From positions 25,469,501 to 25,533,500 of the forward strand of contig OX485805.1 in the NCBI GenBank assembly GCA_950295325.1: DNA of 64,000 bases, read 5' to 3'. Source of the stretch: Polytrichum commune. Lineage: Eukaryota > Streptophyta > Polytrichopsida > Polytrichales > Polytrichaceae. Made by a program: the position numbers and the translations under genes. Shown piece by piece: positions 9,129 through 32,548 of the stretch. The notes under the pieces were generated by a model. That model was not told the DNA's origin. It was given only the letters and a program-made list of their open reading frames with translations, and did not search any database. Position 1 is the first letter of the stretch; every line of letters starts with the position of its first letter.

Positions 9129-9210
9129 AGAAAAAGAAAAAAAATTAAGCCCATACATTATACCGGCATGAATGTGAGCCCGTTATCCAAATGCTTAACA
9201 CGTTGAACGA
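9129..9210 (-). mobile_element. 82-bp 3'-end fragment of the Dualen-like LINE
   Basis: On the minus strand this is the conserved 3' module of the LINE family, including a GGGCTCACATTCATGCCGG-like core, followed by a pyrimidine tail. It aligns with 11914-11990 (minus) and 25760-25836 (plus). ACCAACCAA occurs at 9120-9128 and 9211-9219 and may be the target duplication. Either an extreme 5' truncation or a short parasite using the LINE tail would explain it. Confidence 0.65.
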
Positions 9211-9577: not shown

Positions 9578-11197
9578 TTGCATAACTCAACCACCTCCTT
9601 CACAGGCAGTCACTTTGGATCAACACCCCCTATAGAAATCAGTCGCGACACAATACAAGGCGATACCCTCAGTCCTTACCTATTCATCATCTTCCTAGAA
9701 CCTCTCCTTAGATGGCTAGAAAAAGATGACCTAGGATACCACTTTAATACATCTCTCTCTACTTGTACCACAACAGCATACGCCGATGATCTAACTATTA
9801 TAACGGACAATATACAACACATACAACCACAAATTAACAAACTACACAAATTTGCACAATGGTCATACATGGACCTAAACCTATCCAAGTGCGCAATCAC
9901 GGGGTGCCCAAATAAATCCAAACTCAAACCAACCACCTTCAAAGCATACATTCAATCACAAAATATCACCTACAATTCCCAAAACTTCCCCACCCTCACC
10001 CAAAATGAACCCTATACATACCTAGGAATACACCTAACCCCGTCACTCAAATGGAACTTACAAAAAGACATTATACTCAACAAAGTCAAACAACAAAGCC
10101 AACTCCTAAACAACTCCCCTGCTAGCCTTACACAAAAGATCAAAATCCTTAACACTGTCATCAAACCCCGAATAGCCTACGCTTACTATGCCGTCCCATT
10201 CTCCAAACCCGACATCAAGAAACTAGATAAGATTATTAGTAAGCTAACCAAGAAAATTTGTAACATACCCACAAGCACCGCCAACATACTCACTCACCTC
10301 CCACACGAAAACTTCGGCATCAACGCCACCTCACTCCTACCCGAATACATACGATGCATAGGGCAACAACTAATACAAGCCCTCAACGACCCATGGCAAC
10401 TAGGAATCATATATCAAGGACTAGCCAAACACATAGTAGCCAAATATGGAGGATCACTCCACCTCTCCACACTCAAACAACAAGCATGCATACGATCACC
10501 CATAGCTAGGACATTATTCCTCCTCAACAAAGAATATGAAATACACGTCACTACCGCGAACCGCGCATTTCCCATCAAAAAAACTCCGTTAGAAAAGGAA
10601 TGGAAGAACAACACGAATTACGCTAGTCTCATGGACGAATCCAAAGCCAAATCCCAAAAATACCTAGACAAACTCTACATATATGGCATCACCACCCTCC
10701 CACAAATCCAAAATCCCGACACTAAATCCATATTAACACCAAAAGAATTTCAAAAAATATATAAACATGCCCCCAAAACTATCAAGGATGCTCTACTACA
10801 AGCATCAACAATATTCCCCACACCACCACCACCCCCATCAACTATGAGCAACACACACCAAACACAACCACCCTTGCAAGACACGTACACTAACCCGCCC
10901 CCCCCTCTCCCACAAACAACACTAGGCCAGATAATTCAAAGTATAATAGACACAAAATCCCACACCTCAAAAGACAAATGGGGAGCAAGCTCCATCCGAA
11001 AATGGTACCTATGCCAATGGTACCTACCCCAAAAGAGCGTGCAACAATGGCGCAAAGAAGAAGAATTATTACACCCGGATAACTTACTACTAGAACACAA
11101 CACAATATGTATTTCCCAATTCCATAAAAAACAATTAGAACAAAAAACCACACAAAACATATGCAAGTCTCACCAACCATATCCAATCAAAGGATAA
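9578..11197 (+). pseudogene. RT C-terminal half, outer LINE copy
   Basis: This 539-codon frame opens at a TTG, not at a true start. It encodes the second half of the reverse transcriptase: the TIQGDTLSP segment, then AYADDL, then the thumb and connection region. It matches residues around 1200-1700 of the inner copy's ORF2 closely. It ends at a stop after a 1-nt indel near 11120-11150; the homologous frame continues as QSKDNKYIHPPL. A Pro-rich run at 10890-10915 corresponds to the C18 homopolymer of the inner copy but keeps the frame here. This is a dead fragment. Confidence 0.85.
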
Positions 11198-11913
11198 CAA
11201 ATACATACACCCACCATTGAAAATCACCAACCTCAAGCTATCCACACAAGAATGTAACCCCGACAGAGATATTCAAGTGGATCAACCCACTATCCAAATA
11301 CAAAACTCCGAAACCCACATATACGACCAAAGGGGGAAGCACATAGCCACCATAACTATCGAGAGACTACAATGGCTATGGAACCAATTCTCCCAAAATA
11401 TACTCACGACAAAAAGTAAATCCCTACAACCCCCACCCCAAAATTTCGAAACAGAGGTATTATGGCTTATACAAAGATACATAACTATACTCCCCAAAAG
11501 GAAACCAAAAACCATACAACCAAATAATCTACATCATACCCTACACCCGGCAATCACTAAAATACTAATTGAATCCTTTAAAATTACGCACTACTCATCC
11601 CCCCTCATACTACTCATCCCCCCTCACCTGCCCCATACAACTCACACAGTATCACTCACCCCACAACAGGGATACAATATTTGGATCCATAGGACACGCC
11701 CAATCCTCCAGATGGAAAGGAACGGGACTAGCATATCCCACAGACCACAAAACAATTGTGGAAGCCTTCCATTGGGCCAGAATGGCCACCAAGGCGGACC
11801 CAAATACAACCACCATCCTCATTATTAATCACAAAGACTGGACATCCCAACAAATACCACTAACCGCAAAAGCCGACGTACACATCATGGCAACCATTCC
11901 CCCACACACCATA
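11198..11913 (+). pseudogene. ORF2 inter-domain region, outer LINE copy, frameshifted
   Basis: The homologue of the segment between RT and RNase H is spread over two frames (11217-11828 and 11569-12045). The change occurs at a local duplication of 'tcccccctcatactactca' near 11590-11630. Sequence after 11913 belongs to the inner element, so the end of the second frame is chimeric. Confidence 0.75.
11902..11913. repeat. 12-bp target-site duplication, left
   Basis: CCACACACCATA here is repeated exactly at 23913-23924. Removing one copy and the 11914-23912 insert restores the outer element's reading frame (the ...PPHTI... segment), which proves the insertion boundaries. Confidence 0.93.
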
Positions 11914-12128
11914 GAAAAGAAAAGAAAAAGTAACGCCCGCACATTGTACCGGCGTGAATGCGAGCCCGTTGTCCGAATGCTAAACACGGCGGGCCGTGTT
12001 GTAGCATGGGGAGTTATGCCTCCGTTAGGAGGTGGGCTCTGTTAGTAAAAAGAAAGAGAAAGTAAAGTGTAAGGAGGTTAGTGTATGGAGTGGTTTTTTT
12101 TTTTTTTTTTTTTTTTTTTAATAAATTT
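11914..12128 (-). other. 3' UTR and conserved tail of the inner LINE
   Basis: Directly after the natural ORF2 stop (12129-12131) there is an internal A26 run (12094-12119). About 180 nt follow that include two hairpins: CCTCC-TAAC-GGAGG near 12010-12030, and ACGCC...GGCGT near 11931-11955. The element ends in TTTTTCTTTTCTTTTC. The same order of motifs without the A run ends the outer copy. Such a 3' structure plus a short repeated tail is the arrangement expected when an RT recognises its own RNA end. Confidence 0.75.
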
Positions 12129-14860
12129 TTAGGGGGGTGCAACGGGATTTTGTTTGTTATCGAGTTTTCTTTTATTTAACACGAGGTATGTGAGATATTT
12201 GATGGCATTTTGATGTATGTTTTTCATGAGGATTTTTATATTAGATTTTGGGATTTTGAGGTCTTCTAATTTTTTGATGGAATTTTCGTGTATGGCACCT
12301 CTAACTCATGCTGTGATGGTTATAAGAGGATTTGTTTTCCATCCCTTGCTTTGTATAGTGCTAATCAATGGGTCGTATTTGGCATGTTTGTGTGTTATGG
12401 CTTGTTCTGGGAATCTGTCGTGACAGTATGTGAATTCAATGAATTGGATGGTTCGTGCGTGGGATGGTAGCATGGGTGTTGGGGTGTGGTTAGGGGCTCC
12501 TATAATACATAGGATGTCGGGTCTTAGTCTGGCGTGGCACTGGCAACCGGTTTGAGGGCATAGACATTCAATGAGCCAGTCGGGGACCGTTTGTTCTTGC
12601 TTGTTGTTGTTGATATTACCTGCATTTGTTAGTGTGTAATATCTGGTGTGTTTGTTAGCTTGGAGTGTTTGGGTGATGAGGTGTACTGCCTTGTTGTGGC
12701 GTGCTATTCTTAGGCCCTTTAAGTATGGGTGTTCGCATGTTGAGAGTAGGTGTGGCCATGTGTCTCTTTCATTTTTGCGGCATAATGTACAGTTTGGGTT
12801 TTGAAATTTGAGGGGCCAGAAAATATTCTTTCTATGGTTACCCATGTATTGGGCATATCGAAATTTTAAAGTTTGGGTGATTTGAGCGTCCGTTATTTTA
12901 TTGTTTTTCCAAAAGTGATTGGAGAGTTTGTGGTTTATTTGGTCGTTGGAGAGCCATTTGTCTACATATGGGTGTTTATGTTGGGCCAACCTAATTTCTT
13001 GTTTTTCGTGTGTTTTTGTGATGAATGTGTGCAAGTTTCGGATTGCCCCATTGCGTGTTGCTGTGGGACAACTTGTTAGCCAATATGGTGTAGCGTGTGC
13101 GATGTGTATATGGGGTGTGGGAGTGGGTTTTTCTTTATTTGTGCCTTCGTTGGCTAGCGCATCGGCTATTTCATTTCCTTTGATGCCCGTGTGGGCACGT
13201 ACTTTATGTATGTGTACTAAGTGCGGTGTTAGGTAAATTTGGTGTATTATGGCGGCGATGAGGATTTTGTCCGGGTGGTGGTGTTGTGAGGTTGGGTGTT
13301 GTATATGGTTACTAAGTAGATATATGCTATTAAGGCTATCTGTAAAGATGTGTGTTTCAATTTTTGTGACTTGGATGGTTTTGACTGCTATGAGTATGGC
13401 ATTTAATTCTGCTCTAAGTATGTTTTGGTATCCTGGTAGTCGTTCTGCTATACGAATGTTTGTGTTGGGGCTATAGACTCCTAAACCTGCGATGTCACCC
13501 TCTATTTGGCCTTCGGAGTTCTTAGTTGGTGGGATGAATGAGCCATCTGTGTACATGCATTGTTGTGGGTGGAATTTGGGGGGGTGTTGGTGGTAGTATT
13601 TAATGGGGAGGTTTGATTGGGGGATTGTTGGTGGTGGGGGGATGTTTTTTATGGGGGCGTTTTTCCATATGTTCGAGAATTTAATGTGGTAATTTGGCGT
13701 TGTAGGTTTGATTGGGAATGTGTCTATGGGTGCGTTGATGGTATGTTCTAGTACTTGTGCGAGGTCTTGTGGGGTTTTTAGGCTTGGTGTGAGGTTGGCG
13801 TGGTTATGTATACATAGTATTGTTGTGAGCGAGGGTTCTACGTATTGGTAATATTTTGGCCATTCCGGCATAGGGTTATATAGTATGGTATGTGGGGGGA
13901 TGGTTGTGATGGTGTGTATGTCACCACTTGTGGTAAGTGGGATTTGTTGTGTGGTCCAGTCGTTATGGTTGATTATGAGTATGGTGATCGTGTTTGAGTC
14001 TTCTTTGGCCGCCATTCTAGCCCAGTGGATGGCTTCAATGGTTGTTTTATGGTCTGTGGGGTAGGCTAGACCAATGCCTTTCCATCTAGATATTTGTGCG
14101 TGTCCTAGAGAGCCAAATATTATGTCACGGTTATGGGGTGAGTGATATTGTGTGAGTTGTGTGGGGCATGTGAGTGGGGATGAATAGTAGGAGTGCGTGA
14201 TTTTGAGGGAGTTTATTAATGTTGTGATAATTGTCGGGTGGATTGTATGGTGCATGTTTTGGGGTTGTATGTTTTTTGGCTTTCTTTTGGGGAGTATGGT
14301 GATGTATCTTTGTATTAGCCAAAGTATTTCAGTTTCAAAGTTTTGTGGTGGGGGTTGGAGGGCGTTTGTAGTTTGTGAGAAGTGGTGGAAAGAGAATTGG
14401 TTCCATAGCCATTGTAGCCTTTCTGTAGTGATGGTGGCCATGTAGTTTCCTTTTTGGTCATATATGTTGGCTTCGGAGTTGTGTAATTGGATGGTTGGTT
14501 GGTTTACTTGAATGTCTTTATCCGGGTTGCATTCTTGTATGGATAATTTTAGGTTGGTGATGTGAAGAGGGGGGTGTATGAATTTATTGTCTTTTGATTG
14601 TATGTGATTGAGGCAATTAGCGTATGTGTGGGTGGCTAATAGTTCGGCTTGCTTTGTGTGATATTGTGTAATACATAGTATGTTGTGGTCTAGAAATATA
14701 TTATCCGGGTGTAGTAGTTCTACCTCACTTCTCCATTGTTGGGTGATGCCTTGTGGGGCTTGCCATTGACAAAGGTAGTTCGTCCTTATTGCTTGTGCAC
14801 CCCATTTGTCTTTTTTAGTGGAGGTCTTTTCTTTTATTATTGTTTGGATTGCTTGTCCTA
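12129..14860 (-). pseudogene. ORF2 C-terminal half: RNase H, CCHC knuckle, RLE-like domain
   Basis: This frame is open from the C18 tract (14861-14878) downstream, though no ATG occurs before 14441. RNase H signatures are YTDGSF (about 13550), RAELNAI, TDSLNS and HKVRAHTGIKGNEIADAL (about 13150-13210), and all catalytic acidic positions are present. A knuckle CTLC-x9-H-x4-C follows near 12740-12795. The C-terminal block has RPDIL (about 12515), IEFTYCHD and AKYDPL. It resembles the RLE of R2 and Dualen elements, with a PD-(D/E)-K pattern. A TGA at 12306-12308 replaces a Gly codon seen in the outer copy. The frame then continues 58 codons to the natural stop at 12129. The half is separated from RT only by the homopolymer frameshift. 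Confidence 0.85.
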
Positions 14861-17800
14861 GGGGGGGGGGGGGGGGGGATGTTTACCATGACCTCGTTTT
14901 GTGGTGGTGTTTGTTGTATTGGGTTTGTAGAGTTTGTGGGTGGGGGGGGGGGGAACATTATTGTTGCTTGTTGGAGAGCCTCTTTGATGGTTTTGGGTAT
15001 GTGTTTGTATGTGGATTGAAATTCTTTTGGGGTTAGTATGGCTTTGGTGGTGGGGTTTTGGATTTGTGTTAGTGTGGTAATGCCGTTTATGTATAGTTTG
15101 TCTAGATATTTTTGGGTCTTGGCTTTGGATATATCCGTTAGGGTGTTATAATTTGGGTTGGTTTTCCAAATTCGTTCTAGTGATGTTTCTTTGATGGGGA
15201 ATGCTTGGCTTGTGGAGTGGACATGGATTTCGTATTCTCTTTCAAGGAGAAAGAGTGTTCGGGCTATAGGGGAACGGACACATGCTTGTTGTTTGAGTTT
15301 GGGGAGGTGTCGGGCCCCACCATACTTGGCCGCTATATGTTTGGTTAGCCCTTGGTATATAATGCCTAATTGACCCGGATCGTTAAGTGCTTGGATTAGT
15401 TGTTGTCCTATGCATCGGATGTAGTCGGGTAGTAGGGAGGTTACGTTAATGCCAAAACTTTCTTGTGGGAGGTGGGTGAGGATGTTGGCCGAGCTTTTAG
15501 GAATGTTGCAAATTTCTTTGGTTAATTTGCTAATGATTTTGTCTAATTTTTTAATATCCGGTTTGGAGAATGGGACGGCGTAGTAGGCGTATGCTATTCG
15601 CGGTTTAATGACTGTATTCAAGATTTTGATTTTTTGTGTGAGGCTAGCCGGTGAGGTAGTTAGGAGTTGACTTTGTTGTTTGACTTTCTTCATCGTTATT
15701 TCTTTTTGTAGGTTCCATTTGAGTGATGGGGTGAGGTTTATTCTTAAATACGTATAAGGTTCGTTTTGGGTGAGGATGGGAAAATTTTGAGAGTTATATG
15801 TGATATGTTGTGATTGGATGTATGCTTTGAAGGTAGAGGGTTTTAGTTTAGATTTATTAGGACATCCGGTAATAGCACATTTTGATAGGTTGAGGTCCAT
15901 GTGGGACCATTTCGCGAATTTTTGGAGTTTTGTCACTTGTGGTTGAATGTGTAGTATGTTGTCCGTTATGATAGCTAAGTCATCCGCATATGCGGTTGTG
16001 GTGCATGTGGCGGATGACGTGTTGAAATGATAACCTATGTTATCTTTCTCGAGCCATCTTAGTAGTGGTTCGAGAAAAATGATGAAAAGATACGGGCTAA
16101 GGGTGTCCCCTTGTATGGTCCCGCGGCTTATTTCTATTGGGGGCGTCGTGCCAAAATGACTCCCGGTGAATGATGTGGTGGAATTGGTGTAGATATTGCC
16201 TACGATTTCTACCGCATCTAATGGGTAGCCTAGGTCCTCCATTATGGCTAGGAGTCTTGCGTGGTCTATAGAGCCGAAGACATTTCTAAAGTCTATATAA
16301 ATTAAGTATATGTCTTTTGTGGTTAGTCTTGCGTCTTCTAAGGTTGCTATAATCGTTTGAATTTGTCTCGAAGTGTTTCGTTGTGGTCGGAAGCCTTCTT
16401 GGCTAAAGTGTAGTAATCTATGTTTTTCTCCATAGCTTGTTAGGAGTGATGTTAGTGTGCTAGTGTATAGTTTATAGATTGTGTTCGCTAGTGAGATTGG
16501 TCTATAGTTGGATATGTGGGTGGGATCGTCCTTTTTGTGTAATAAGATGGTCTTACTATGTTTCCAGTATTGCGGGATCGTTCTTTGTTTGTTACAATGT
16601 TTGAAAAATAGGTATAGGAGGTCTTGCCATTGTGTTGGTAGTATTTTAATGATATCATTTGGGATATTGTCTGGGCCCGGGACTTTCCCTTTTGTTAGGC
16701 TTTTGACGCAACAGTCGTAGACTTCTCTAGTGAATTGGTTACTTATTTGTGTGTTGGGGTTGCCTCGTTTTTCTAGAATGATTCCTTGATGTGAGTGCCA
16801 TGGGTATTTTCGTACTGCACATATGCACGTATTAGGGTGGTCCGTGGTGTCCTCACATAGGGGGGCTTGTCTTTGGAATGAGGTTTGTTGAGTATGGTAT
16901 ATTTCCCTAGCTATCTCGGCGGGTTTGGTGAGAATTTGACCTTGGGGGTTTTGTATACAGTCAAGTGTGTTGGTGGTTGTTGAGTGAAATATTTTTTTGT
17001 GGATTATTTTGGGTTTAGTGTTTAGTAGGATTCTATATTTGTTAATGGCTGCTTTGCAATTAAGTGAGGTTTGCTTGGTTATGATTTTGTATGCTTCTGT
17101 CTTCGCGTTTTTTCCTATGGTGACTAGCTGTACAATCCATGTGTGTATTTCTGTGGGATGGGGGGGTGGTGGTGGAATATTGGGGTTTCGTATTAGCTGA
17201 AGGTTTGTGATATCTGGGTGGTTATGTAGTTGTGTATGGGGGTAGTGACATGCAGCTTTTATGGCTTTCCGGGTGTTGTGGTATATTTTCAGTTGATGCT
17301 TCCATTTATTCTGTTGGGTCCTGGGGAGGAATCCGCCTTGGGGTTTTATCCTATTTGGTAGTGGTGGGGTGGGGTGTGACATGCATGTCTGTTCTATGCA
17401 TTGACTAAGGGAATTGGTAATTTCTTGGAGTTTGAGTTGTGTGTCTGCCCATTGCGTGGGCGTAAGATGTTCTTGTTGGAGTATTTGTGTGAGGTTTTCT
17501 ATTGCTATATTTTGTTTTCCTAAAAAAGTTGTTTGTAGGTTTTGGAGGTTGTTAGGGGATATAGGGTATGTGATACGTGGGGTGTTTATGGGGTTGGTGG
17601 TTTCTTTGATGACTATTGTATTGGGGGCTAGCTGGAGTTGTACCGGGAAGTGATCCGAGTTTTGATTTAAGTTGGTTAACATATGGCTATGAAGATTGGT
17701 GATATTGGGGTCGTTGGTGTAGAAGCCGTCTATATGGCTAGTTGCTGTGTAGTTGTGGCTTCCTTGCCTTGTGAAGTTTACTGGGTTATGGACTACTTTG

Positions 17801-19749
17801 AGTCCATTGTTTTGTATGAATCGTGCCCATTCTTGGTCATCCGTATTAGGCGGGGTTGTAGTGTTATTATTGGTTCTTCCTTGTAGTAATATGTCACGGT
17901 TAAAGTCTCCGGCTAATATGATGGTGTATTTGGGGTGTTTTAGTATGATATTTTGAATTTGGTTTTGGATTTCGGGTATGAGGGGCTCATCTTCTAAGTG
18001 GGATGGCATGTACATGTTTAGGATGATTAGCGGTGTTAGTGGTTTGTTATTGATTATTATGGCTTGTAGGTAGGGTGAGATTGAGCTTGGGGTAGGTATT
18101 TTGATGATGTTTTCGTTTGTGTATATTGCTATGGGTATCATGGCTAGGATGCCACCTCTAGCTTGTGTGGGGCCCGTATATCTATTATGTTTTTGTGGTG
18201 TGGTATTGGAATTGTTGTATATGATTTTGTATTCTTTTAGTTGGCGGTCTATGTATGATGTGGATTTTGTTTTTGGGATTTTGGTTTCTTGGATGAGTAT
18301 AATATGGGGATTGTTGTGTAGTGTTTGGGTGAGTTCTTGGATACCGGGTAGGCTAGAGTTAATACATCCGGTGTTCCAAGTGATTATTTTCAGGGCTTGA
18401 GTGGTTGGGTTGTTTGGCCTAGTGTGGTCGTGTGGGGTATCCTGGTTAGGTCTATGTGTGTTGGGTTGGTATCCTGTTATTTTTTGGGTACATTTAGTTA
18501 GTTCTTGTATTATTTTGTTTGGGATGTGGTGTATTTCATTTTGTAGGGTTACTGCGGTTATGGGTACTCCCTTAGCGATTTTGTCGTTGATGATGGAGTA
18601 GGCTTGTGGTATGGTGGTTATTGTTGGAGTATGTATGTTAGTTTCGTGGGATGTGTGTGGGTGCGTATTAATTGGCAATTGTTGTAGTCGTCTTAGGATG
18701 GTCAAGTATCTTGGATGAAGTTTGTTAGTCATTTTTTGATTGCATATTTGTGGTATTGGGCTATATGTTAGGATAAGGGCATATATTTGGTGGTGGGTGG
18801 GGTAGTTTGAGAGGAGTGAGGAATGGTTTTTTAGGTGTGTTAATTCTTGGGAGTTGGGAGTGTTTTGGGGGTTGGGGGTGTTGTTGTTTAAGTGGGGTTC
18901 AAATAACTTTTCAAGGTGGGCGTATTGAGGTTTGAGTGTTAGGGTTTTTGGTATAAAGTATTGTTTTTGTCGTTGTGTGTATTCTTTGGGGAGGTTTTTG
19001 AGGATGGTTGAGAGCGGCCCCGGGTTTAGTTCAATGTCTCCGTGTAGGAGTATGAGTGTAGAGTTATTCCAAGTGTAATATGCTATGGTTTTAATTTTTG
19101 GTTTTTTGTGGTGAGTGTGTGTTATGTAGTAGATATTTCCTATATATATTGGTATATTGATGGGGATGATTGTGTGGTTTGTGTATGGGTTGTTATTTAT
19201 GTGGTAGTGGTGGTTGTATGTGTGTGAGGTGGTCTTTCTATGGTTATATTGGTGAGTGTTGTCTATGTGTGGTGTATATATTGTGGTTTTGTGTGGTCTA
19301 TGGGAGTAATGGGGATTATAGATGTATGCGATGGGTATCATGTAGTTGTTTGGGAGAGGTGGTAATGTGTGTATTTGTAGTGTGTGGGTAGTGGTAAGTT
19401 TGGTGGTCTTCGTGTATGTGTGTGATGTGTGTGGTGGCATAGGGGGAGTCATGGGTGGTGTTGTTTTTTGGGTGTGGTTGTGGGGGTTAAATATGACATG
19501 TCTTAAGGAGGATTTGTGAGTATGGTGTGTTGGATTATGGGTGATTTTGGTGTGTGTGTGTTTTGTTAGGAGAAGGAGGGTAGTGATTAATAGGTATATA
19601 TGTTGGGAGGTGGGTCTAGTTTTGTGAGAGTTTAGGTATGGAGAGAGTACACCCTTAAAAAATGTGGGCATTTTATTATATAAAGAAAAAACAATACAAC
19701 ATATAAAGGAGAGGGACCATTTATGGTGTCCTTGGAGGCCACTATCCAT
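14815..19749 (-). CDS. ORF2 N-terminal part: 2A motif, APE endonuclease, reverse transcriptase
   Basis: The chosen start is ATG 19749, which overlaps the ORF1 stop (ATGGATAG). The frame is also open upstream to 19905 inside ORF1. The first 244 residues contain two hydrophobic stretches and a His/Thr-rich region, ending at a 2A motif. The APE domain (about residues 452-708) shows ITWNTG, IQETK, NMYMP, AGDFN, HIDGF and NSDHFPV, so the catalytic set is complete. The RT (about residues 1020-1290) has YRPISL, IDFRNVFGSIDH, RGTIQGDTLSP and AYADDL, so the YADD core is intact. The frame leaves the homologous one at C18 (14861-14878) and stops at 14815. One base fewer in that run would join it to the RNase H half, giving about 2,540 codons in all. 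Confidence 0.92.
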   Translation of the reverse strand: MDSGLQGHHKWSLSFICCIVFSLYNKMPTFFKGVLSPYLNSHKTRPTSQHIYLLITTLLLLTKHTHTKITHNPTHHTHKSSLRHVIFNPHNHTQKTTPPMTPPMPPHTSHTYTKTTKLTTTHTLQIHTLPPLPNNYMIPIAYIYNPHYSHRPHKTTIYTPHIDNTHQYNHRKTTSHTYNHHYHINNNPYTNHTIIPINIPIYIGNIYYITHTHHKKPKIKTIAYYTWNNSTLILLHGDIELNPGPLSTILKNLPKEYTQRQKQYFIPKTLTLKPQYAHLEKLFEPHLNNNTPNPQNTPNSQELTHLKNHSSLLSNYPTHHQIYALILTYSPIPQICNQKMTNKLHPRYLTILRRLQQLPINTHPHTSHETNIHTPTITTIPQAYSIINDKIAKGVPITAVTLQNEIHHIPNKIIQELTKCTQKITGYQPNTHRPNQDTPHDHTRPNNPTTQALKIITWNTGCINSSLPGIQELTQTLHNNPHIILIQETKIPKTKSTSYIDRQLKEYKIIYNNSNTTPQKHNRYTGPTQARGGILAMIPIAIYTNENIIKIPTPSSISPYLQAIIINNKPLTPLIILNMYMPSHLEDEPLIPEIQNQIQNIILKHPKYTIILAGDFNRDILLQGRTNNNTTTPPNTDDQEWARFIQNNGLKVVHNPVNFTRQGSHNYTATSHIDGFYTNDPNITNLHSHMLTNLNQNSDHFPVQLQLAPNTIVIKETTNPINTPRITYPISPNNLQNLQTTFLGKQNIAIENLTQILQQEHLTPTQWADTQLKLQEITNSLSQCIEQTCMSHPTPPLPNRIKPQGGFLPRTQQNKWKHQLKIYHNTRKAIKAACHYPHTQLHNHPDITNLQLIRNPNIPPPPPHPTEIHTWIVQLVTIGKNAKTEAYKIITKQTSLNCKAAINKYRILLNTKPKIIHKKIFHSTTTNTLDCIQNPQGQILTKPAEIAREIYHTQQTSFQRQAPLCEDTTDHPNTCICAVRKYPWHSHQGIILEKRGNPNTQISNQFTREVYDCCVKSLTKGKVPGPDNIPNDIIKILPTQWQDLLYLFFKHCNKQRTIPQYWKHSKTILLHKKDDPTHISNYRPISLANTIYKLYTSTLTSLLTSYGEKHRLLHFSQEGFRPQRNTSRQIQTIIATLEDARLTTKDIYLIYIDFRNVFGSIDHARLLAIMEDLGYPLDAVEIVGNIYTNSTTSFTGSHFGTTPPIEISRGTIQGDTLSPYLFIIFLEPLLRWLEKDNIGYHFNTSSATCTTTAYADDLAIITDNILHIQPQVTKLQKFAKWSHMDLNLSKCAITGCPNKSKLKPSTFKAYIQSQHITYNSQNFPILTQNEPYTYLRINLTPSLKWNLQKEITMKKVKQQSQLLTTSPASLTQKIKILNTVIKPRIAYAYYAVPFSKPDIKKLDKIISKLTKEICNIPKSSANILTHLPQESFGINVTSLLPDYIRCIGQQLIQALNDPGQLGIIYQGLTKHIAAKYGGARHLPKLKQQACVRSPIARTLFLLEREYEIHVHSTSQAFPIKETSLERIWKTNPNYNTLTDISKAKTQKYLDKLYINGITTLTQIQNPTTKAILTPKEFQSTYKHIPKTIKEALQQATIMFPPPPPTNSTNPIQQTPPQNEVMVNIPPPPPPRTSNPNNNKRKDLH
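19015..19041 (-). other. 2A-like ribosome-skipping motif GDIELNPGP in ORF2
   Basis: The codons read LILLH then GDIELNPGP. They match the 2A consensus D-V/I-E-x-N-P-G-P with the usual hydrophobic leucine-rich run upstream. In known 2A sequences the ribosome fails to form the Gly-Pro bond, giving two proteins from one frame. Here that would release about 244 residues from the APE-RT-RNase H-RLE part. In metazoan and trypanosome APE-type LINEs, 2A motifs also lie ahead of the endonuclease. Function here is inferred from the motif. Confidence 0.88.
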
Positions 19750-22700
19750 TAAACGTGCTAGGTCCTTGGTGGGACATTGTTGGGTTGGTATGGAAGCCCG
19801 GTGGGGCTTGTAGAGGTAGCGGGGAGGCGGTCGTGTTGTAGCTTTGTGGTAGTGGGGGTGGGGCGGTTCGTTGTAGAATTTCCGGTGCGGCGGCGGCGAT
19901 TCCATTTACTAAGCCTTGCATGCGGAGGTTCGATTGTTGGAACTCGTGAGCAATTGTGCCGAAGAGTGCTTGAAGGTTGTTGGTGTGGTGTGTGATGGTC
20001 GCCGTGGTTGTTTCGAGGCGTCGATCCGTGTGCGTGTTGATTGTGGTGGTGAGCGTGCAAAATTTCTCATCCAACTTGTCTTCGAATTCTTTCATGGTTT
20101 TGGTGAGGTAGTTTTCGGTGAGGAGTGGGTTGGCGTTGGTGGCGTTGCCCATGGCTTGAATTGTCTCCGCAATGGCTTCACGAACGGGGGCTTGGGCTAG
20201 TCGTATCGCCGTCTTGTTGGGGTCCGTGCCGTCTATACTCCCTCGGTGGGGGATGAAGTCGATGCGGCGTCCAAGGATGAATGTGGATTTGTGGAGCCAC
20301 TCCGTGTACACCGCGGTGTTGAGACATTGGATGTGGCACCATCCGGCTTGTTTGTCGGAGTGGGGTTGGTTATTGTTGCCAAAGCTAATGCCCACGATGT
20401 TGTCCGTCCTGAATGCATGCTTGATGGCCCTTGTAATTGTTGTTTGTGTCTCACGTTGTGGTAAGTTGTTGGCCACTAGTGTTGTGCTAATTCGGAGCTC
20501 CGAAGGGTTGCCGGTTCCTCGGTCTCGGGTGATGCTTACTTGAAGCCTCTCATGGTTGAATGTGATCCCGTCCTTGAGTATGTGGTCGCGTGCTTCTTCG
20601 GTGGTGAGTGTGAGAAATGCAAAATTTTTATCGAGTTCCGGCTTGGTGAGGCCCATGAATTCGTGTTGTTGCCCGTTGTAGTAGCTCTCCCGAACAATGG
20701 TTTCGAAAATGTTGGATGCATGTTCATGTCGAAGTGTTTCTCCCTTGAGGTGTAATCTAAGGTTGCGGGCTTTAGTGGCAAGCTCGTACCCCTTTTCCAC
20801 CTTACCAATGACCAACTCCTTATCCTCCATTTCCATGGCAAATGAGCGGTTTCCTTGGAGTAGTGCATGTCCGTCACGTTGTGGGTGTTGGAGATGGACT
20901 TTGATGAAGCCCGCCCAATTTTTGGTGACGGCGTTGATCCCTACATCAAGAGGATTCGAATATGCCTTGCCAAGTGGGATGTCCATTTGCTTAAGTCTTT
21001 CAAGGCAAACCCCTCTAGCTTCTTGCCTACTAATGCTTTTAAAGCCAAAGTCAAAACGAATGGTTACATGGAACCCTTCGGATAAGCCGGTTGAGGGGTC
21101 TACCTTTTCTTGTCTTGGGATTTGTGTAAAGTGGAGGTGGTTGCCGGGGACCGCGTCCAGGCGCTCGCTTGGATAGAAAAGTTGTGGGACTCTTGGAAAG
21201 GCTCTCCGAAGGGTTTTGAAGTGGATGATTTCTTTCGGGGGGGTCCTGATCCGAGCAAAATCTTCGTTGGTGCGGAGCTCTCGTATGACGTCTACACCCT
21301 TTTGCACCGCAACGGCTTCATGGATGGGGAAGCCCAACCACATTTGGGACACTATGTCTATGCTTGGAATCGCTTCCTCGGACCTCGTGTTGTGTGATTT
21401 GTGTGAGTCGGGGTTGGCCTCTATTCCTCCCGATTCACTTCTTCTCCTTTTCGCACTTTGATTGTCCGATGTGGCTACATTCATTGAGCTCTTGTGTGTT
21501 GTAGTTGTGGGTGTCCTTTCGGCCAAGTTGATGGTGTCAAGTCGGAGTATGGCGGCTTGGTTCGGGGCGGCCATGAATTCATCATTGGATAATGAAAGTT
21601 GGAGAGAGCTCCCTCCATGCTCGGGGGAGACGTCCGCCAATTGCATATCAATGTCAAGATCGTGAAAAGTGAGGACCTTCCCCTTCATAAGTGCTGGTTG
21701 GCTTGCTTGTTGGATATCTTCATCTTCATCATTGTAGTCCTGTATGAGCGCCCTTCTTCGGCTACCGTTGCTGTTTCTGGTTCCGGGGCCCCTACTGTCT
21801 TGGTCTCTGGTGCCGTCGCTGTCGAGTGGCGTTGCTGCTATCCCTTCACCTACGCTCCCCGCTCCGGTGGCACCCCTGAGTCCGTCGTCGATTCCGCCTC
21901 CTGTCTTCGCTCGCCTTCGGTTGCCCCTAGCTGTGTCCTCTTTCTGTCTGCTGCTTGAGCTCGGGCGAAGACCTCCTCTGCTTTCGGTGCCGGAGCTTCT
22001 GGTGTTCCTGGTTCTGCTTCTGGGTTCCGCATCTTGCCTTGCATCAGTTGCTGTGGGGGTCTTGTGGGTGTGCTTCGCCATATCTTCTAGATTAGAGGCC
22101 ATGGTGGTGCTAATGTGTGGATTGAGGGGAGGGCTGGAGAGAGAGATAAGAGACTGGGATGGCTGTTGGGGTATTTGAGGGATTCGGTGTGGGTGGTGGG
22201 TGGGTTTTTCCTGGTTTGATTCAAGGCTTGGCAGGTGATCGTGGGCTGGGTGCGGAGTAGTGTGTTGTACTGTAGTCGGGTTTGGTTGAGTGTTTGCTGT
22301 TGTGACCATTTTTGTTGTGGGCGTTTTAGATGTGGATCTGTGGCGCTCATTGTGGCTATTTACGATGTGGGTGTTTGTTTGTGTGAGTGTGCTGGGGTAT
22401 GGGTGTTTTTTGTGTGCATTCTTGGTGGTGGTTTGTTGTGGGTCTCCTTTTAGGTAGGAGTTGTGATAGACTTGGGTGGCTGGTGGCTTTCTGGATTTGG
22501 GGTGCCGAGTTGTCCCGGCGGAGCGCGCTGGTCTGTCTTGGTTCGGCACTTTTCGGGGATCTTCATGGGGGTTCGAGGTCGTGCAGGGGATCGCCGAGCT
22601 GTGAGGAGCGGCCTCTGGAGGTAAGTCAGTGCAGAGTATTCGGCTGTCTTTGTGTTTTTTGTTTGGGGTAGCTTCTTGGTGGTGGGTGCATCCATTTTTG

Positions 22701-23899
22701 CTAACCTCTGTGTGTATGTGGGTGTGATCTGTGGGCGACGGCGGTGGCGCTTGTGGATCTGGTGGCCTTTTTGGAGGTGGAGGTGCACGGGGGTTAGGTG
22801 TGCATTGTGGGGGGCTCACTGTGTTGTCAGTGTGTGTGGAGGTGGGCATTTGTGAGCGGGGTCTTGGTGGCGTCTTCAAGCGTGGAGTATTGTTGGGTCT
22901 TGGAGGTAGCTTTAGATGGAGGCTTGAAGTGTGTTTGGTAGAGAAGAGCATTGGGGGGCAACCTATAGTTGGGTGTGATAGTATTTTGGGTGGAGAGTAA
23001 TGTGGGTACTTTGTGGGGGGAGAGCTTAGTGGGTGTATTGGGGGTGATTCCATTGTTGAGTGAGAGCTTTGTGGGGGAGTTGTGGGGTTGAATATTGAGG
23101 GGGGAGCATTGTGGTGTGTGTGTGCACACAGGATAATGGTGCTTATGAGCACCCATTTTGTGTTTGAGAATAAAGCTGTAGCGTTGGACGCATTTGTTGG
23201 TGTCGATCCGTGTCTTCTTCTTGCCTCGCCGCGATCTAGATCTGTTTTGCTCCTTCTTTTCTTAGCATGCTTGTGCTTCTGGCTTGTTGGTGCGGTCTCC
23301 GGGGTAGTGTTTGGGGCGCTGGGCCTGTTCGCAGGACTTCTCCCCATCTGTGTGCATCGTGCTGACTTGTTGATGCGGCCGCTAGGGTTGCTCTTGGGGG
23401 TACCGGGATCTGCTCTCTCCTTGTTCGTGGTGCCTCCTTCTCTTGTGTGAGCCCTGCAGCTGTGCTGCTGCCGCATTGCAACATCGCTCCTCTGTAGATC
23501 TGGGACATAGTGGTGGGAGGTAGAGTTCGCGGTGTACTTAGGGTTAGCTGAGGGGAGCGCGTTTGCTTGGCAGATGCTAAGCAGTGTGTATAACACTTGT
23601 AAAAATGTGCAATGAAATCTTGGAGGTTTGCTCTTCAGATGCCTTTGGTGTGTTGTGTCAATCACTCCTCCTGCTATCACTGGGCTTGCTTGCTTCGTTG
23701 CTGTCCCTTGTATTTGCGCCGATGTTGTGTCTCGCCCGGTGAGTCTGAGGCATGCGGTGTGCTGGATCGTGTGCAACGGGTCGCTGGTGTCTATGCTCGA
23801 AGGTTGGGCTTTTTGCTGCGGCGGCGTCTTGAGTTTGTGTCTACTCCGTGGTGCTTTCTCGGTTGCGGCACCGCTCTGGAGCTGCGGGCGGGCAGCCAT
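19742..23899 (-). CDS. ORF1 protein with RRM-like modules
   Basis: The frame is open for 1385 codons from ATG 23899. An internal ATG at 22102 sits in an ideal context (CACCACCATGGCC) and would give 786 residues (MASNLEDMAK...). The upstream 600 codons are low-complexity, rich in Pro/Thr/His/Ser, and may be leader or an N-terminal extension. The internal part begins with a basic, Ser/Arg-rich region. Two segments then look like RRM folds: one with FAFLTLTTEEARDHI near residues 1000-1050, and one with GWCHIQCLNTAVYTEWL about 100 residues later. LINE ORF1 proteins usually bind element RNA and chaperone it. The protein ends in a Pro-rich tail with its TAG inside the ORF2 start. Codon composition is more balanced than in ORF2. 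Confidence 0.82.
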   Translation of the reverse strand: MAARPQLQSGAATEKAPRSRHKLKTPPQQKAQPSSIDTSDPLHTIQHTACLRLTGRDTTSAQIQGTATKQASPVIAGGVIDTTHQRHLKSKPPRFHCTFLQVLYTLLSICQANALPSANPKYTANSTSHHYVPDLQRSDVAMRQQHSCRAHTREGGTTNKERADPGTPKSNPSGRINKSARCTQMGRSPANRPSAPNTTPETAPTSQKHKHAKKRRSKTDLDRGEARRRHGSTPTNASNATALFSNTKWVLISTIILCAHTHHNAPPSIFNPTTPPQSSHSTMESPPIHPLSSPPTKYPHYSPPKILSHPTIGCPPMLFSTKHTSSLHLKLPPRPNNTPRLKTPPRPRSQMPTSTHTDNTVSPPQCTPNPRAPPPPKRPPDPQAPPPSPTDHTHIHTEVSKNGCTHHQEATPNKKHKDSRILCTDLPPEAAPHSSAIPCTTSNPHEDPRKVPNQDRPARSAGTTRHPKSRKPPATQVYHNSYLKGDPQQTTTKNAHKKHPYPSTLTQTNTHIVNSHNERHRSTSKTPTTKMVTTANTQPNPTTVQHTTPHPAHDHLPSLESNQEKPTHHPHRIPQIPQQPSQSLISLSSPPLNPHISTTMASNLEDMAKHTHKTPTATDARQDAEPRSRTRNTRSSGTESRGGLRPSSSSRQKEDTARGNRRRAKTGGGIDDGLRGATGAGSVGEGIAATPLDSDGTRDQDSRGPGTRNSNGSRRRALIQDYNDEDEDIQQASQPALMKGKVLTFHDLDIDMQLADVSPEHGGSSLQLSLSNDEFMAAPNQAAILRLDTINLAERTPTTTTHKSSMNVATSDNQSAKRRRSESGGIEANPDSHKSHNTRSEEAIPSIDIVSQMWLGFPIHEAVAVQKGVDVIRELRTNEDFARIRTPPKEIIHFKTLRRAFPRVPQLFYPSERLDAVPGNHLHFTQIPRQEKVDPSTGLSEGFHVTIRFDFGFKSISRQEARGVCLERLKQMDIPLGKAYSNPLDVGINAVTKNWAGFIKVHLQHPQRDGHALLQGNRSFAMEMEDKELVIGKVEKGYELATKARNLRLHLKGETLRHEHASNIFETIVRESYYNGQQHEFMGLTKPELDKNFAFLTLTTEEARDHILKDGITFNHERLQVSITRDRGTGNPSELRISTTLVANNLPQRETQTTITRAIKHAFRTDNIVGISFGNNNQPHSDKQAGWCHIQCLNTAVYTEWLHKSTFILGRRIDFIPHRGSIDGTDPNKTAIRLAQAPVREAIAETIQAMGNATNANPLLTENYLTKTMKEFEDKLDEKFCTLTTTINTHTDRRLETTTATITHHTNNLQALFGTIAHEFQQSNLRMQGLVNGIAAAAPEILQRTAPPPLPQSYNTTASPLPLQAPPGFHTNPTMSHQGPSTFNG

Positions 23900-23912
23900 C
23901 TTGGTAGTCAAT

Positions 23913-25679
23913 CCACACACCATACAATACACCCCTACACCGGAATGGCCCAAATACTACCAATACATCGAATCTTCACTCACATCAATAATATGTGTAC
24001 ACGGCCAAGCAAACTTGACTTACGATCTACAAACCCCACGAGAACTCGCATACATATTAAAACACGCCACAAACACACATATAGAAACCCACCCTATAAA
24101 ACCCACAAGATCACAATATCATATTAAATTCTCCCCCACTTGGAAAACTTCACCCAATACCAACACTCCCACAAATATAACTATCCCCTCAATAACGATA
24201 CCAACCAAGTACTACCACCAACACCCCCTTAAATACCAACCGCAACAATGCATATATACGGACGGTTCATTCATACCCCCCTCAAAAAATTCAGAAGGAC
24301 AAATAATAGGCAATACCGCAGGCTCCGGTATATACAGCCCCAACAATAACATCCGCATATCAGAAAGATTACCAGGATACCAAAACATCTTGAGAGCAGA
24401 ACTAAACGCTATACTAGTCGCCGTCAAAACCATACAAACAACCCAAGTTGACACACACATATTCACACATAGCCTTAATAGTATATACCTAATCAACAAC
24501 CACATACAACGCCCAACCTCACAACACCATCACCCAGATAAACTACTCATAGCTGCCATAATACACCAAATATACTGGACCCCACACACAATCTCCATCC
24601 ATAAAGTACGAGCACATACGGGTATCATAGGCAATGAAATAGCCGACACCCTCGCCAACGAAGGTACACACCAGAAAAAACCAACTCCCACGCCACACAT
24701 ACATCTAGCCCACGCATCACCTTATTGGCTAGCAAGTTGCCCAACCGCCACACACGATGGAGCTATCAGAAATCTACACACGTTCGTAACAAAAGCACAT
24801 GACTACCGTGAGGTAGGGCATGCCCAAAACAAATTCCCATACGTAGAAAAATGGCTATCCAACACCCAAATAAATCAAAAACTATCCAACCACTTCTGGA
24901 AAAACAATAAAATAATAGATGCCCAAATCACCCAAACCTTAAAATTCAGATATGCCCAATACATGGGGAACCACAGGAAAAACATCTTCTGGCCACTTAA
25001 ATTCCAAAATCCCAATTGCACACTCTGTCACAGAAATGATAGAGACACATGGCCACATCTACTATCCATGTGCGACCACCCCTACCTAAAAGGCCTGAGA
25101 ATTGCTCGCCACAACAAAGCAGTCCACCTCATCACACAAACACTACAAGCCAACAAACACACCCGCTTCTACACATTAGCAAACGCCGGCAACCAACACA
25201 ACATGCACCATGAAAACACCATCCCGGAATGGCTTATACAATGCGCATGCCCACAACCACCCTGCCAGTGCCTAGCTAAACTAAAACCAGATATACTATG
25301 CATATTAGGTGCCCCCACTACATCAACAACACCACTAATTCTAACACCAGCATACACTGTGCAACTCATTGAATTTACATACTGCCATGATAGGTTCCCA
25401 GAACAAGCCCTTACACACAAACATGACAAATACGACCCACTAATTAACAACATCCAAAGCAAAGGATGGCAAACAAACCCCCTCATCACCATCATAGCCG
25501 GTGTAAGAGGCGCCATACATGAACATGCCATCACTAAATTAGCCAACCTTAAAATCCCAAAACCAAGCATTAAAACTCTCATGAAGGATCTACACCAAAA
25601 TGCCATCAAATACCTAACCTACTTAGTCCTAAACAAAAGAAAACTAGAAAACAACCAAGCTACTATCACACCCTCCTAA
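23913..25679 (+). pseudogene. RNase H, CCHC knuckle and RLE-like domain, outer LINE copy
   Basis: About 588 codons are open to a TAA at 25677. The order is: linker; RNase H (IYTDGSF near 24253, RAELNAIL, THSLNS, HKVRAHTGIIGNEIADTL near 24600-24660); knuckle CTLCHRNDRDTWPHLLSMC near 25020-25075; RLE-like block (KPDILCI near 25285, IEFTYCHD near 25370, DKYDPLI near 25425, then AGVRGAI). In RNase H the second catalytic Asp (TDS) is His (THS) here. This copy keeps the C-terminal 53 codons that the inner copy loses to a TGA. The frame appears longer on the plus strand (from 23628), but those codons come from the inner element's 5' end. Confidence 0.85.
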
Positions 25680-25836
25680 AACTTAATAGGAACTAAAAGC
25701 AAACTAACCGAGCCCACCTCCCAAGGAGGCATAAATCCCTAAACGACAACCCAGTAAAATGGGTTAAGTTTTCGGACAACAGGCTCATATTCATGCCGGT
25801 ACTATGTGCAGGCGTTATTTTTTCTTTTTTTTCTTT
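23913..25836 (+). mobile_element. Outer LINE copy, right part and 3' end
   Basis: The outer element resumes with the second copy of CCACACACCATA and runs through RNase H, the knuckle and the RLE-like domain to a tail of TTTTTTCTTTTTTTTCTTTTC ending near 25836. Its 3' UTR (25680-25836) repeats the CCTCC...GGAGG hairpin and the GCCGGTACTATGTGCAGGCG-type core seen in the inner copy. Confidence 0.85.
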
Positions 25837-29910: not shown

Positions 29911-31092
29911 AGAGGATCTGCAAAGCAATAACTAGATCTGATCCGGGTTTCTTCTCCCATGTCCTATCCGGAACTCCTATCCCCTCATGCTCTCTCTCTC
30001 CTCCGCTAACGATCTCCGAATCATTCGTACACAAAATCAATCAAGGAAAATCAAGGAGTGAGAAATCAAGGAGTTATTAGAGTAGGAGCAAACAAAATAC
30101 AACAATGGAGAAGGAACCCCTCTCCAACTCCTTATTCAGCCTTAAGTAGAGGCTTGCAATCCCTAACTACTGGTGGCGGCCCAGGCGGCCGCCCTGAAAA
30201 CCCTAGGCAGCGAGAACTCCGGAAACGCGTCCTTCGCGGAATTTCCGGATCTCGATCCGCTTTTTGCGCTGACAGAAAATTTGAATTCACAGTCTTGCCA
30301 AAACTCAAAAAACATCCTAAACTCTGTCTGCCTAATTCTGATCTACCTAATGTTAATCTAATTGGTGCGATGTTTTTTCGAAGCCGTCCCGTCCTTGGAA
30401 TGGCTTGCGGGCCCGCTGATGGCGGAGGAGCCTCCTCCGGGGGTCAAAAGTCGCCGTTCCTGCAGCCTTGTAAATACCCTCCTCATATTTGGAGAAGGGG
30501 CAATCTCGTCCTTCGAGTCCCCTGCTCCTTCTGTTCGTGGTGTTCCGGAAACTGTACTTCCCTTCCGGACGCTCCGGATCGGGGAAGGATCGCTTCCGGT
30601 GCGCTGTTCCGGATTCTGTCCGCCTGAGATCGAGGTAGTCCGCGGGTCCCTGGTGAAGGCCGCCCTTGAGGGTGGCGGAGGGAATGTGTTCACCATTTGG
30701 CAGTCTAGAGGAAACGACGGCGAGGCTTGGGTCATAGGGGCCTTACCCCTATTCAAAGTCGCCTCTCGATCCGGAATTCGGTGCCTTATAGGGGTCCGAG
30801 CTCTGTCCGGAGTCCGGGACCGATCCGAGTTTCGCGGGACAGGGGACTGGCCTCATCCGGATCTAACAGACCCGGTGCTCTTCCGCCTCACTTGGGGAGA
30901 GCGGATCCTTTCCGGAGCTCTTCCGGAACTGGCAGGCCGAGAGCTGCCTCCATGCTGGTTGGGTCCTGCAGCCGTTGGCGGATTTTGGACCAGGGCAACT
31001 TCACCAACTACCTCATAGAGGGTTCCGGATGGTGACCTAGGCGGACCCGGATAGAGTACCCGCCGAGGTGTTCCGCTTGGCGGAACCACCTT

Positions 31093-32403
31093 CTAGATTT
31101 CCGCTAGGAGATCCTTCATCGTCCGTGAGTATTTCACGAGGATGGGGAGGGTCTGCCTAGCGGAAGTCGGTTCTCTGGACTCCATCATCCGGTCGTAGAG
31201 ATGCGCCTTATTGACGATCTCTGCCGGCTGCCCCACCAGCTCCCGGATCCAGCTGAAGACCATTGCCTGCTCCGCGTGGTACTTCCGGATTTCCTCGCTC
31301 TTCTAACTCAGCTCCTGAGTCATGGCCACTACCTGCGCGGTGAGGTGAGCGTTTTCCGTCTTGGCTTGCTCGAGCTCCTTCCTGTCCGCCCTCTTCGCCA
31401 ACTCCCGGAGAATATTTCCGGGTCCGCAGTTGTCCAGGGCCTGGTTCGCTCCCCGGGCAATGTGTTCCAGCCGGAAGTACTGGTTCTGTAGATCCTCCAG
31501 CCCCTCCTGGACCCGCTTGAAGGGATTTTCCGGAAAGTCCCAAGCGGAGAGATCCACATTCCGCCAAGTGGTTTCCCGGCTGGGTCCGGCTTCTGGATGA
31601 TAATGAGGGGGAGGAGAGGTTGGTCTTTGGAGGGTCGGCGGCGGACTTCCGGGTGAAGAGGGAGGCGCTTCCGGAATGATGGGGTCGCTTGAGGTTTCCG
31701 TCTCGATGTCTCCGACTTCCGGATGGAGCTTGTAGGTGACTTCGTCCGCCGCTCTAGTCAGCATGTCCTCCTCCTCGGCCGTGATGCAGTCAAAGTGCTG
31801 ATAGAGGTGCAGAATGAAGGGGGAGAGGAAGGAGGGTTTCCGGCCTACATTGGGGAGGGCCTGCCCTACTACCTCGTGAATTATCAACCCCCAATTCACG
31901 GGCCAAACTCCGGACATAGCACCGAACAGGGTGTTAGTCATGGTAAGGCTGATCTGCTTAGGCTTGTCCGGGTTAAGGATGGGCATGAGGAACTCTAATA
32001 CCCTCCGCTCTCTAAGGTTCCGGCAGTTCCCGGGGTGGAAGCCGTCTTTCGGGTCCGCGTCTCCTCTAAACTTTCCGGCAAACATGCCATCGCGGCGGCC
32101 GGCCCATCCCTCTGGAATTCCTCTCGGAAACCCGTAAACCCTATTCCAGACTTCCGGAGTCCAACTATCCGGATCCCTCTTTTTAGTTCTCAGCCACTGA
32201 TTCCCTCTCTCGAACTTGAATTCCCGGAGGGTATCTTCCGCTCGGAGGTTCCAGGGTTTGGCGAGCAAACCCTCGCAACCCATAACCCGGAGATCCTCCA
32301 CTAGCTCCTGCAGCTCCCCATCCTCCCTCGGAATTGCAGGGATGAGGGCTTTGAGCGGAATCGGGATGGGTTCCCTCCGATCCTCTTCCTGTACTTCCGG
32401 CAT
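31093..32403 (-). CDS. Element-encoded hypothetical protein with in-frame TAG
   Basis: ATG 32403 (MPEVQEEDRREP) is preferred over an upstream TTG. The first stop is TAG at 31303-31305, giving 366 residues. The same frame then continues for 69 protein-like codons (KSEEIRKYHAEQ... to LLAEI) up to a TAG at 31093, so the first TAG is a nonsense change or a read-through site. The central part, with LTMTNTLFGAMSG, VNWGLIIHEVV and ILHLYQHFDCITAEEE, resembles 'putative plant transposon protein' domains. A Pro/Ser-rich linker and a probable coiled coil follow. The function is unknown. It is the only long ORF of the 4.1 kb element. Confidence 0.6.
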
Positions 32404-32466
32404 TTTCCTTTCTTCTCTCAACCTCTGTCACAACTACAGAAATTCTCCCCCCTCCAGGTTCCCTCT

Positions 32467-32548
32467 CTTCCGCTTACTTGCTACGGAGTCCCGGCAAGCC
32501 AACTGCCGGTAACTAGAAATTGCGGAGTCCCAGCAATCCAACTGCTGG
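32467..32548. repeat. Small tandem duplication in the leader of the element ORF
   Basis: Two copies of a block starting CGGAGTCCC (about 32485 and 32523) each pair GGCAA/GCCAA- or CAGCA/TGCTGG-type halves. Each forms a short stem, and together they make a duplicated hairpin about 100 nt upstream of ATG 32403 in the transcript. Confidence 0.45.

Follow-up and report, generated by a model that had tools for sequence, protein, structure and literature searches.

Whether a LINE with two kinds of endonuclease resides in a probably non-algal nuclear genome, and for how long it may have done so, is the question raised by this locus. A stretch of 64,000 nucleotides (the window) was analyzed, in which a sequence-only reading had placed a Dualen/RandI-type LINE on the minus strand. 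The founding Dualen study of 2005, carried out on Chlamydomonas, reportedly described APE, RLE, RNase H and a cysteine protease, with an RT between two old groups. Judged by architecture, the nearest known kind is Dualen/RandI, no algal Dualen sequence being part of the comparison. The element was interpreted as an autonomous non-LTR retrotransposon of the dual-endonuclease (Dualen-like) kind that would move by target-primed reverse transcription, and the probability of this reading was estimated at about 0.8. The StopGo/2A-like motif, the PCIF1-like domain, the nesting, the 3′ RNA structure and the copy number described below were features beyond the sequence-only reading.

Boundaries, nesting and open frames

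The ends assigned earlier were exact, since CCACACACCATA occurs at 11902-11913 and again at 23913-23924 with 11,999 bp between. The site that received the full-length LINE was itself an older plus-strand copy of the same family, which lacked the 5′ part. The features of this nested arrangement and of the open frames are as follows.

11914..23912, minus: full-length LINE, 11,999 bp, with perfect 12-bp target-site duplications on either side
11902..11913, no strand: target-site duplication CCACACACCATA, one of a perfect 12-bp pair
23913..23924, no strand: target-site duplication CCACACACCATA, the other of the pair
9584..11913, plus: older 5′-truncated copy, left part
23925..25832, plus: older 5′-truncated copy, right part (RNase H, RLE, 3′ end)
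19742..23899, minus: ORF1, with its ATG 13 nt from the 5′ end of the element
20280..20500, minus: RRM-like strand-helix pattern in ORF1, seen by eye, with approximate ends and without Pfam or PDB support
14815..19749, minus: ORF2, first frame
12306..14831, minus: ORF2, second frame, joined with the first in 4/10 relatives

The strand was A/C-rich, so the open frames by themselves were no evidence of coding. The base identity of the two copies in the window was 71-79% over seven inverted arms (75-79% by BLAST), and their dS values were 1.1-1.8, which is near saturation. The residue identity was 71-81% (57% in one 51-codon linker) and the dN/dS values were 0.07-0.16 (0.26 in the linker). The residues were thus kept despite near-saturated synonymous divergence, which excluded a chance origin of the coding frames.

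The start context of ORF1 was strong (AAGATGGC). The C-terminal 519 codons of ORF1 were conserved (dN/dS 0.09-0.20), whereas the N-terminal part was weakly conserved and fast-evolving (0.33-0.41); no significant family was found for ORF1 in the Pfam or PDB searches. The ORF2 ATG at 19749 overlaps the ORF1 stop as ATGGATAG, an arrangement that would permit reinitiation, and the first ORF2 frame is open further upstream to an ATG at 19905. Two defects were observed in the window copy. The C-run at 14861-14878 brings a change of the ORF2 frame, and about 57 residues are lost from the end through a stop at 12306, a point at which 23/23 related rows stay open. Ten relatives were fetched with their flanks, and L001, the window itself, was left out of the protein sets. 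In four of the ten, the APE, RT, PCIF1-like, RNase H and RLE parts lay in a single open frame (L033, 2305 aa; L035, 2372 aa; L037, 2422 aa; L039, 2123 aa), while ORF2 was broken or shorter in the remaining six. L035 and L041 were near-identical, and counts that include both are not independent.

Reverse transcriptase lineage, APE and the RLE-like part

The contents of ORF2 were, in order, the 2A motif, APE, RT, the PCIF1-like domain, RNase H, CCHC and the RLE-like motifs. Their positions are given below.

19015..19056, minus: StopGo/2A-like motif LILLHGDIELNPGP, upstream of APE
17641..18384, minus: APE endonuclease (PF14529/PF03372), from Pfam
15406..16785, minus: reverse transcriptase with YADD; RVT_1 at about 16539-15865
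14706..14813, minus: chromodomain-like stretch, a weak signal that in relatives stays under the Pfam cut-off
13734..14531, minus: PCIF1-like methyltransferase-fold domain (PF12237, predicted fold), between RT and RNase H
13143..13562, minus: RNase H (PF00075), D-E-D-H-D
12732..12791, minus: CCHC knuckle, C-x2-C...H...C
12309..12704, minus: RHN and restriction-like-endonuclease motifs (PD, IEFTYCHD, KHxKY)

The Pfam matches of APE (PF14529, 37.7 bits; PF03372, 26.2 bits), RVT_1 (106.3 bits) and RNase H (55.4 bits) were above the cut-offs, and APE, RT and RNase H were also found in the ORF2 of each of L033, L037 and L039. The APE motifs WN, QE, GDFN and SDH were read in the window sequence. The motifs read in APE, RT, RNase H, the knuckle and the RLE-like part are those that we take to belong to their respective families. 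RNase H lay downstream of RT and, in four relatives, in the same frame. The presence of APE, RT, RNase H and CCHC in one element, claimed earlier from the letters, was confirmed by these matches and by direct reading of the motifs. RTE elements are not known to carry more than APE and RT, RNase H being absent; an RTE identity did not fit, as RNase H and a long C-terminus are present.

The RT tree comprised 16 rows, with few reference rows, no RTE row and bacterial outgroups that were unreliable for rooting. The element family formed one clade (support 99/98), the L1 rows of the genome and human L1 formed another (86/79), and the R2 rows formed a third (91/97). In this 16-row tree, the RT lineage appeared separate from both L1 and R2; the firm placement with plant L1 that would have spoken against the sequence-only reading did not occur. 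The outgroups were two of four records with distant bacterial RTs from a plasmid search. Both rows were long-branched; one attached to the element family with support of 84/82, the other attached to the L1s, and no weight was given to these placements. No relative was detected in the viral and prokaryotic collections scanned, which are poor places for such elements.

The possibility that the element belongs to the RLE group (R2/R4/Hero/NeSL-like) and gained APE secondarily, independently of Dualen, was considered unlikely. Among solved structures, the window RT matched three R2 sequences best (112, 107 and 106 bits). It reached 75 and 71 bits with two further entries, which we take to be R2Bm, and 75 and 74 bits with human L1. 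Nearness to R2 was therefore not uniform, as R2Bm and human L1 scored equally (75 bits each). The RT of L037 gave 103, 87, 86, 66 and 62 bits with R2 and 60 bits with L1. The C-terminal CCHC-RHN and RLE-like motifs are a further likeness to R2-type LINEs, and the R2 proteins aligned with CCHC-RHN weakly and in colinear order. Against this alternative, the RT lineage was separate from R2 in the tree, APE and RNase H are present, and no specific target was evident at 28 junctions.

The C-terminal order was CCHC, RHN, (R/K)PD, IEFTYCHD and KHxKY. Among 23 rows, the knuckle, RH, IEFTYCH and KHxKY were invariant; the aspartate of PD was changed in 3/23 and the N of RHN in 3/23. A two-row RLE profile searched against the PDB gave R2Bm at E 0.96, and a 23-row profile gave no chain at E 10. 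A structure model built from two sequences only had a pLDDT of 30.6 and was discarded. The C-terminus is likely an RLE, an assignment that rests on motifs, order and constraint rather than on fold. The RLE-like C-terminus of the sequence-only reading was upheld as far as its motifs go; the HMM profile had no PDB match and the two-sequence model was uninformative.

For the Dualen-like reading, the proposed Dualen/RandI type was supported as regards the dual-endonuclease architecture and an RT outside L1. Similar to Dualen/RandI, the element combines APE and RLE(-like) parts, RNase H, an RT apart from L1 and R2, and a microsatellite-like tail. It differs in its PCIF1-like domain and 2A motif, neither of which, to our knowledge, is known for Dualen. 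It also differs in its probably non-algal host and in that no cysteine protease was found: Pfam detected no peptidase in the window ORF1, in the C-terminal pieces of six ORF1s or in three ORF2s, the ORF1 N-terminus being fast-evolving. A dual-endonuclease LINE in a probably non-algal genome, with these two additional features, is unusual.

Family size, constraint and residence

The own assembly was searched (408 Mb in 64 contigs, seven of which are 42-78 Mb). At least 64 matching stretches were found at E 2.5e-70 or lower (63 scored of 7263 first-look candidates), with 68-100% identity, on all seven chromosome-size contigs. One stretch was the window and two rows were pieces of one copy; hence, the family comprises at least about 60 copies. 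This distribution bore out the earlier view that the element is a resident and not a contaminant. The TNL gene noted near the element was also recovered, with TIR, NB-ARC and LRR frames in the window, and the PII exon that had been claimed was not found by a crude motif scan.

39209-44276, minus: putative TNL gene; its TIR, NB-ARC and LRR frames share a strand and are interpreted as its exons

The assignment of the host to the land plants draws on this gene and on plant-type L1s. A streptophyte alga as host, which would remove the land-plant surprise, was judged unlikely: the markers considered were one TNL gene and the L1-like elements, but a spliced TNL within an assembly of 408 Mb and seven large contigs is what a land plant, for instance a moss, would show.

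Constraint was evaluated between the window copy and six further copies, for the comparisons that yielded an estimate of each rate; several dS values were saturated and undefined. The dN/dS values were 0.04-0.07 for RT, 0.04-0.10 for RNase H, 0.11-0.21 for APE and 0.06-0.11 for the CCHC-RLE part, all four being under purifying selection. The low values for APE and CCHC-RLE indicated that both endonuclease domains were kept and that neither is a relic. As a separate observation, L031/L032 was a mosaic, with 93% identity to the window element from before the 2A motif to the 3′ end and 73% in ORF1, as if ORF1 had been exchanged between subfamilies. Three L1-like elements with long open frames (L051, L052 and L053) were also present in the genome.

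Recent horizontal transfer, with an alga or protist as the donor, would fit the reported occurrence of the type, and was judged unlikely. In the portions of the literature available, Dualen/RandI is listed for green algae only (PMC4438587), is recorded in several Chlamydomonas relatives among core-Reinhardtinia algae (PMC8226300) and is present in cryptophytes (PMC12747079), land plants not being among the reported hosts; no report of a land-plant Dualen was found among the open-licence papers, as far as their accessible text goes. Against a recent acquisition, several lineages coexist with dS from about 1 to over 2, and all are constrained. A single recent arrival would leave shallow divergence and is disfavoured, while repeated arrivals remain compatible. 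The choice between an ancient and a horizontal origin left by the sequence-only reading was therefore narrowed, and the saturated synonymous divergence argues for long residence over one recent transfer.

That the element is instead a plant L1 whose degenerate, unrelated C-terminus was mistaken for an RLE was regarded as very improbable: L1s are the usual plant LINEs, the APE-RT-RNase H order is the same, L1-like elements occur in the same genome and one of them gave 99 bits with the element RT, little less than the 108 bits of one R2, but the RT lineage, RNase H type, C-terminus and tail all differ, the L1 rows of the genome fell with human L1 (L053 scoring 178 or, in another comparison, 186 bits with human L1 vs 75-94 bits with the element family), CCHC-RHN matched R2 colinearly though weakly, the C-terminus was among the most constrained parts, and RNase H retains the H that, in the part of PMC4640811 available, is reported to be replaced by R in the archaeal-like RNase H of plant L1.

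PCIF1-like domain, StopGo-like sites and the 3′ end

PCIF1, or CAPAM, is the cap-adenosine N6-methyltransferase of mRNA caps. The domain between RT and RNase H resembles it in Pfam family and predicted fold, but is located inside a LINE polyprotein. PF12237 was found by Pfam in 19/19 family members; when L033, L037 and L039 were scanned whole, it appeared at E 2e-6 to 1e-5, below the cut-off. In a Foldseek search with the predicted model (mean pLDDT 46.6), PCIF1 accounted for the first six of 318 matches, with TM-scores of 0.24-0.29, and PCIF1 was not found when a PCIF1-like sequence profile was searched against the PDB. The dN/dS values of this part were 0.10-0.26. NPPF, which we take to be the catalytic motif of PCIF1 and to correspond in position to LAYPTD (14069-14052, minus), was absent, LA(Y/F/H/L)P(T/K)(D/N) standing in its place in 19/19 members. 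Its role would most likely be that of a scaffold or of a binder of capped 5′ ends, and not that of a methylating enzyme. No report of PCIF1 in retroelements was found in the open-licence papers, within the text they provided.

The 2A motif or a near variant was present in 10/10 copies covering the region (L049 lacks the region and was left out of the count). The core (D/G/C/N)(V/I)ExNPGP was complete in the window copy, L031, L037, L039 and L047; L033, L035, L041, L043 and L045 had near variants, some with H, Q or K instead of E, others with an altered end. The motif was doubled in 4/10 copies at a spacing of about 440-600 nt, and the preceding stretch had dN/dS values of 0.23-0.51 between the window copy and six other copies. 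In front of D(V/I)ExNPGP stands a hexapeptide that is rich in L and has G as its last residue, as in the 2A of non-LTR elements of trypanosomes and sea urchin, according to the available part of PMC4981915, and such a hexapeptide before D defines a 2A class in the excerpt of PMC12846837, which the present motif fits. The doubling, the changes of E and the probable plant host distinguish the element from those of trypanosomes and sea urchin. According to the same excerpt of PMC12846837, plant viruses do not employ StopGo even though it functions in plants, and a plant genome that carries it is therefore of interest.

The chromodomain-like stretch of ORF2 may be read as a hint only. PF00385 was matched in 4/8 segments at E 0.024-0.15 (12.5-15 bits vs a cut-off of 25.1), and other Pfam families reached a comparable E in three of the other four; the stretch of the window copy had no Pfam match. 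The profile gave CDYL2 at E 0.27-0.52 against the PDB, behind an unrelated enzyme at E 0.24.

Two features were recognized at the 3′ end.

11933..12043, minus: structured 3′ RNA of 29 pairs; across 28 copies, both partners have changed in 13 of them
11914..11932, minus: 3′ tail (TTTTTC)(TTTTC)n

The structure (111 nt) consisted of a closing helix, a short hairpin, a long hairpin and a terminal hairpin. In 28 copies, L007 (cut tail) and L022 ((ATT)n tail) having been left out of the alignment, 96.6% of the cells were paired. In the shuffle test, the observed value was attained by 0/500 shuffles for four of the five measures and by 87/500 for the pair-type count; slid structures dropped to 29-45%. 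No Rfam match was found within the window. The tails were (T3-6 C)n in 28/29 copies, L007 being left out of this count, and (ATT)n in L022; for RandI of green algae, the available part of PMC3747384 names (ATT)n and (CTATTT)n tails. After the tail, T was the first base in 23/28 junctions and the second in 17/28, a T-rich tail end and a target T being indistinguishable without an empty site, and nothing was fixed beyond T-rich starts at the 28 junctions. Target-site duplications of 12-14 bp were identified in five of 11 elements (the window copy, L031, L033, L035 and L041). L049 had a 9-bp candidate, L039 and L047 had matches only away from the junction, and none was found in L045; the tail was not located in L037 and L043. 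A 26-base A-run (T on the plus strand) was observed at 12094-12119 in the 3′ UTR of the window copy, upstream of the conserved structure.

A cycle may be proposed from these features. The ORF1 protein would coat the element RNA, and ORF2 translation would begin by reinitiation at ATGGATAG, with StopGo freeing a leader from the APE-RT protein. The ORF2 protein may grip its own RNA via the 3′ fold; one endonuclease would nick the first strand, and the nicked end would be extended on the tail. RNase H would remove the RNA, and the other endonuclease would cut the second strand about 12 nt away. More tentatively, a plant LINE lineage might have captured a PCIF1-type cap-adenosine methyltransferase and made it a cap or 5′-end reader, in a polyprotein with two working endonucleases, one per strand, and with tandem StopGo sites dosing the products. 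If so, the PCIF1-like module would represent a novel mode of capped-RNA recognition by a retroelement. Dual-endonuclease LINEs are reported to mark the step of the replacement of RLE by APE (PMC4640811, available part). Whether the two domains are redundant or cut different strands becomes testable in a host such as this one, where copies are numerous and selection on both is strong.

Several minor observations were made elsewhere in the window. A GC-rich block at 30000-32500 (0.565 at 30001-32000) contained several long overlapping open frames, three of which matched no Pfam family at E 0.01. At 9132-9202 (minus), a match to the last 74 nt of the element only (84%; terminal hairpin and tail) may be a 5′-truncated copy or a SINE with a common 3′ end. 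At 58593-58997 on the plus strand, a tandem repeat with the unit sequence QQLSVVGNSAPAAAVYCNQN forms an open frame.
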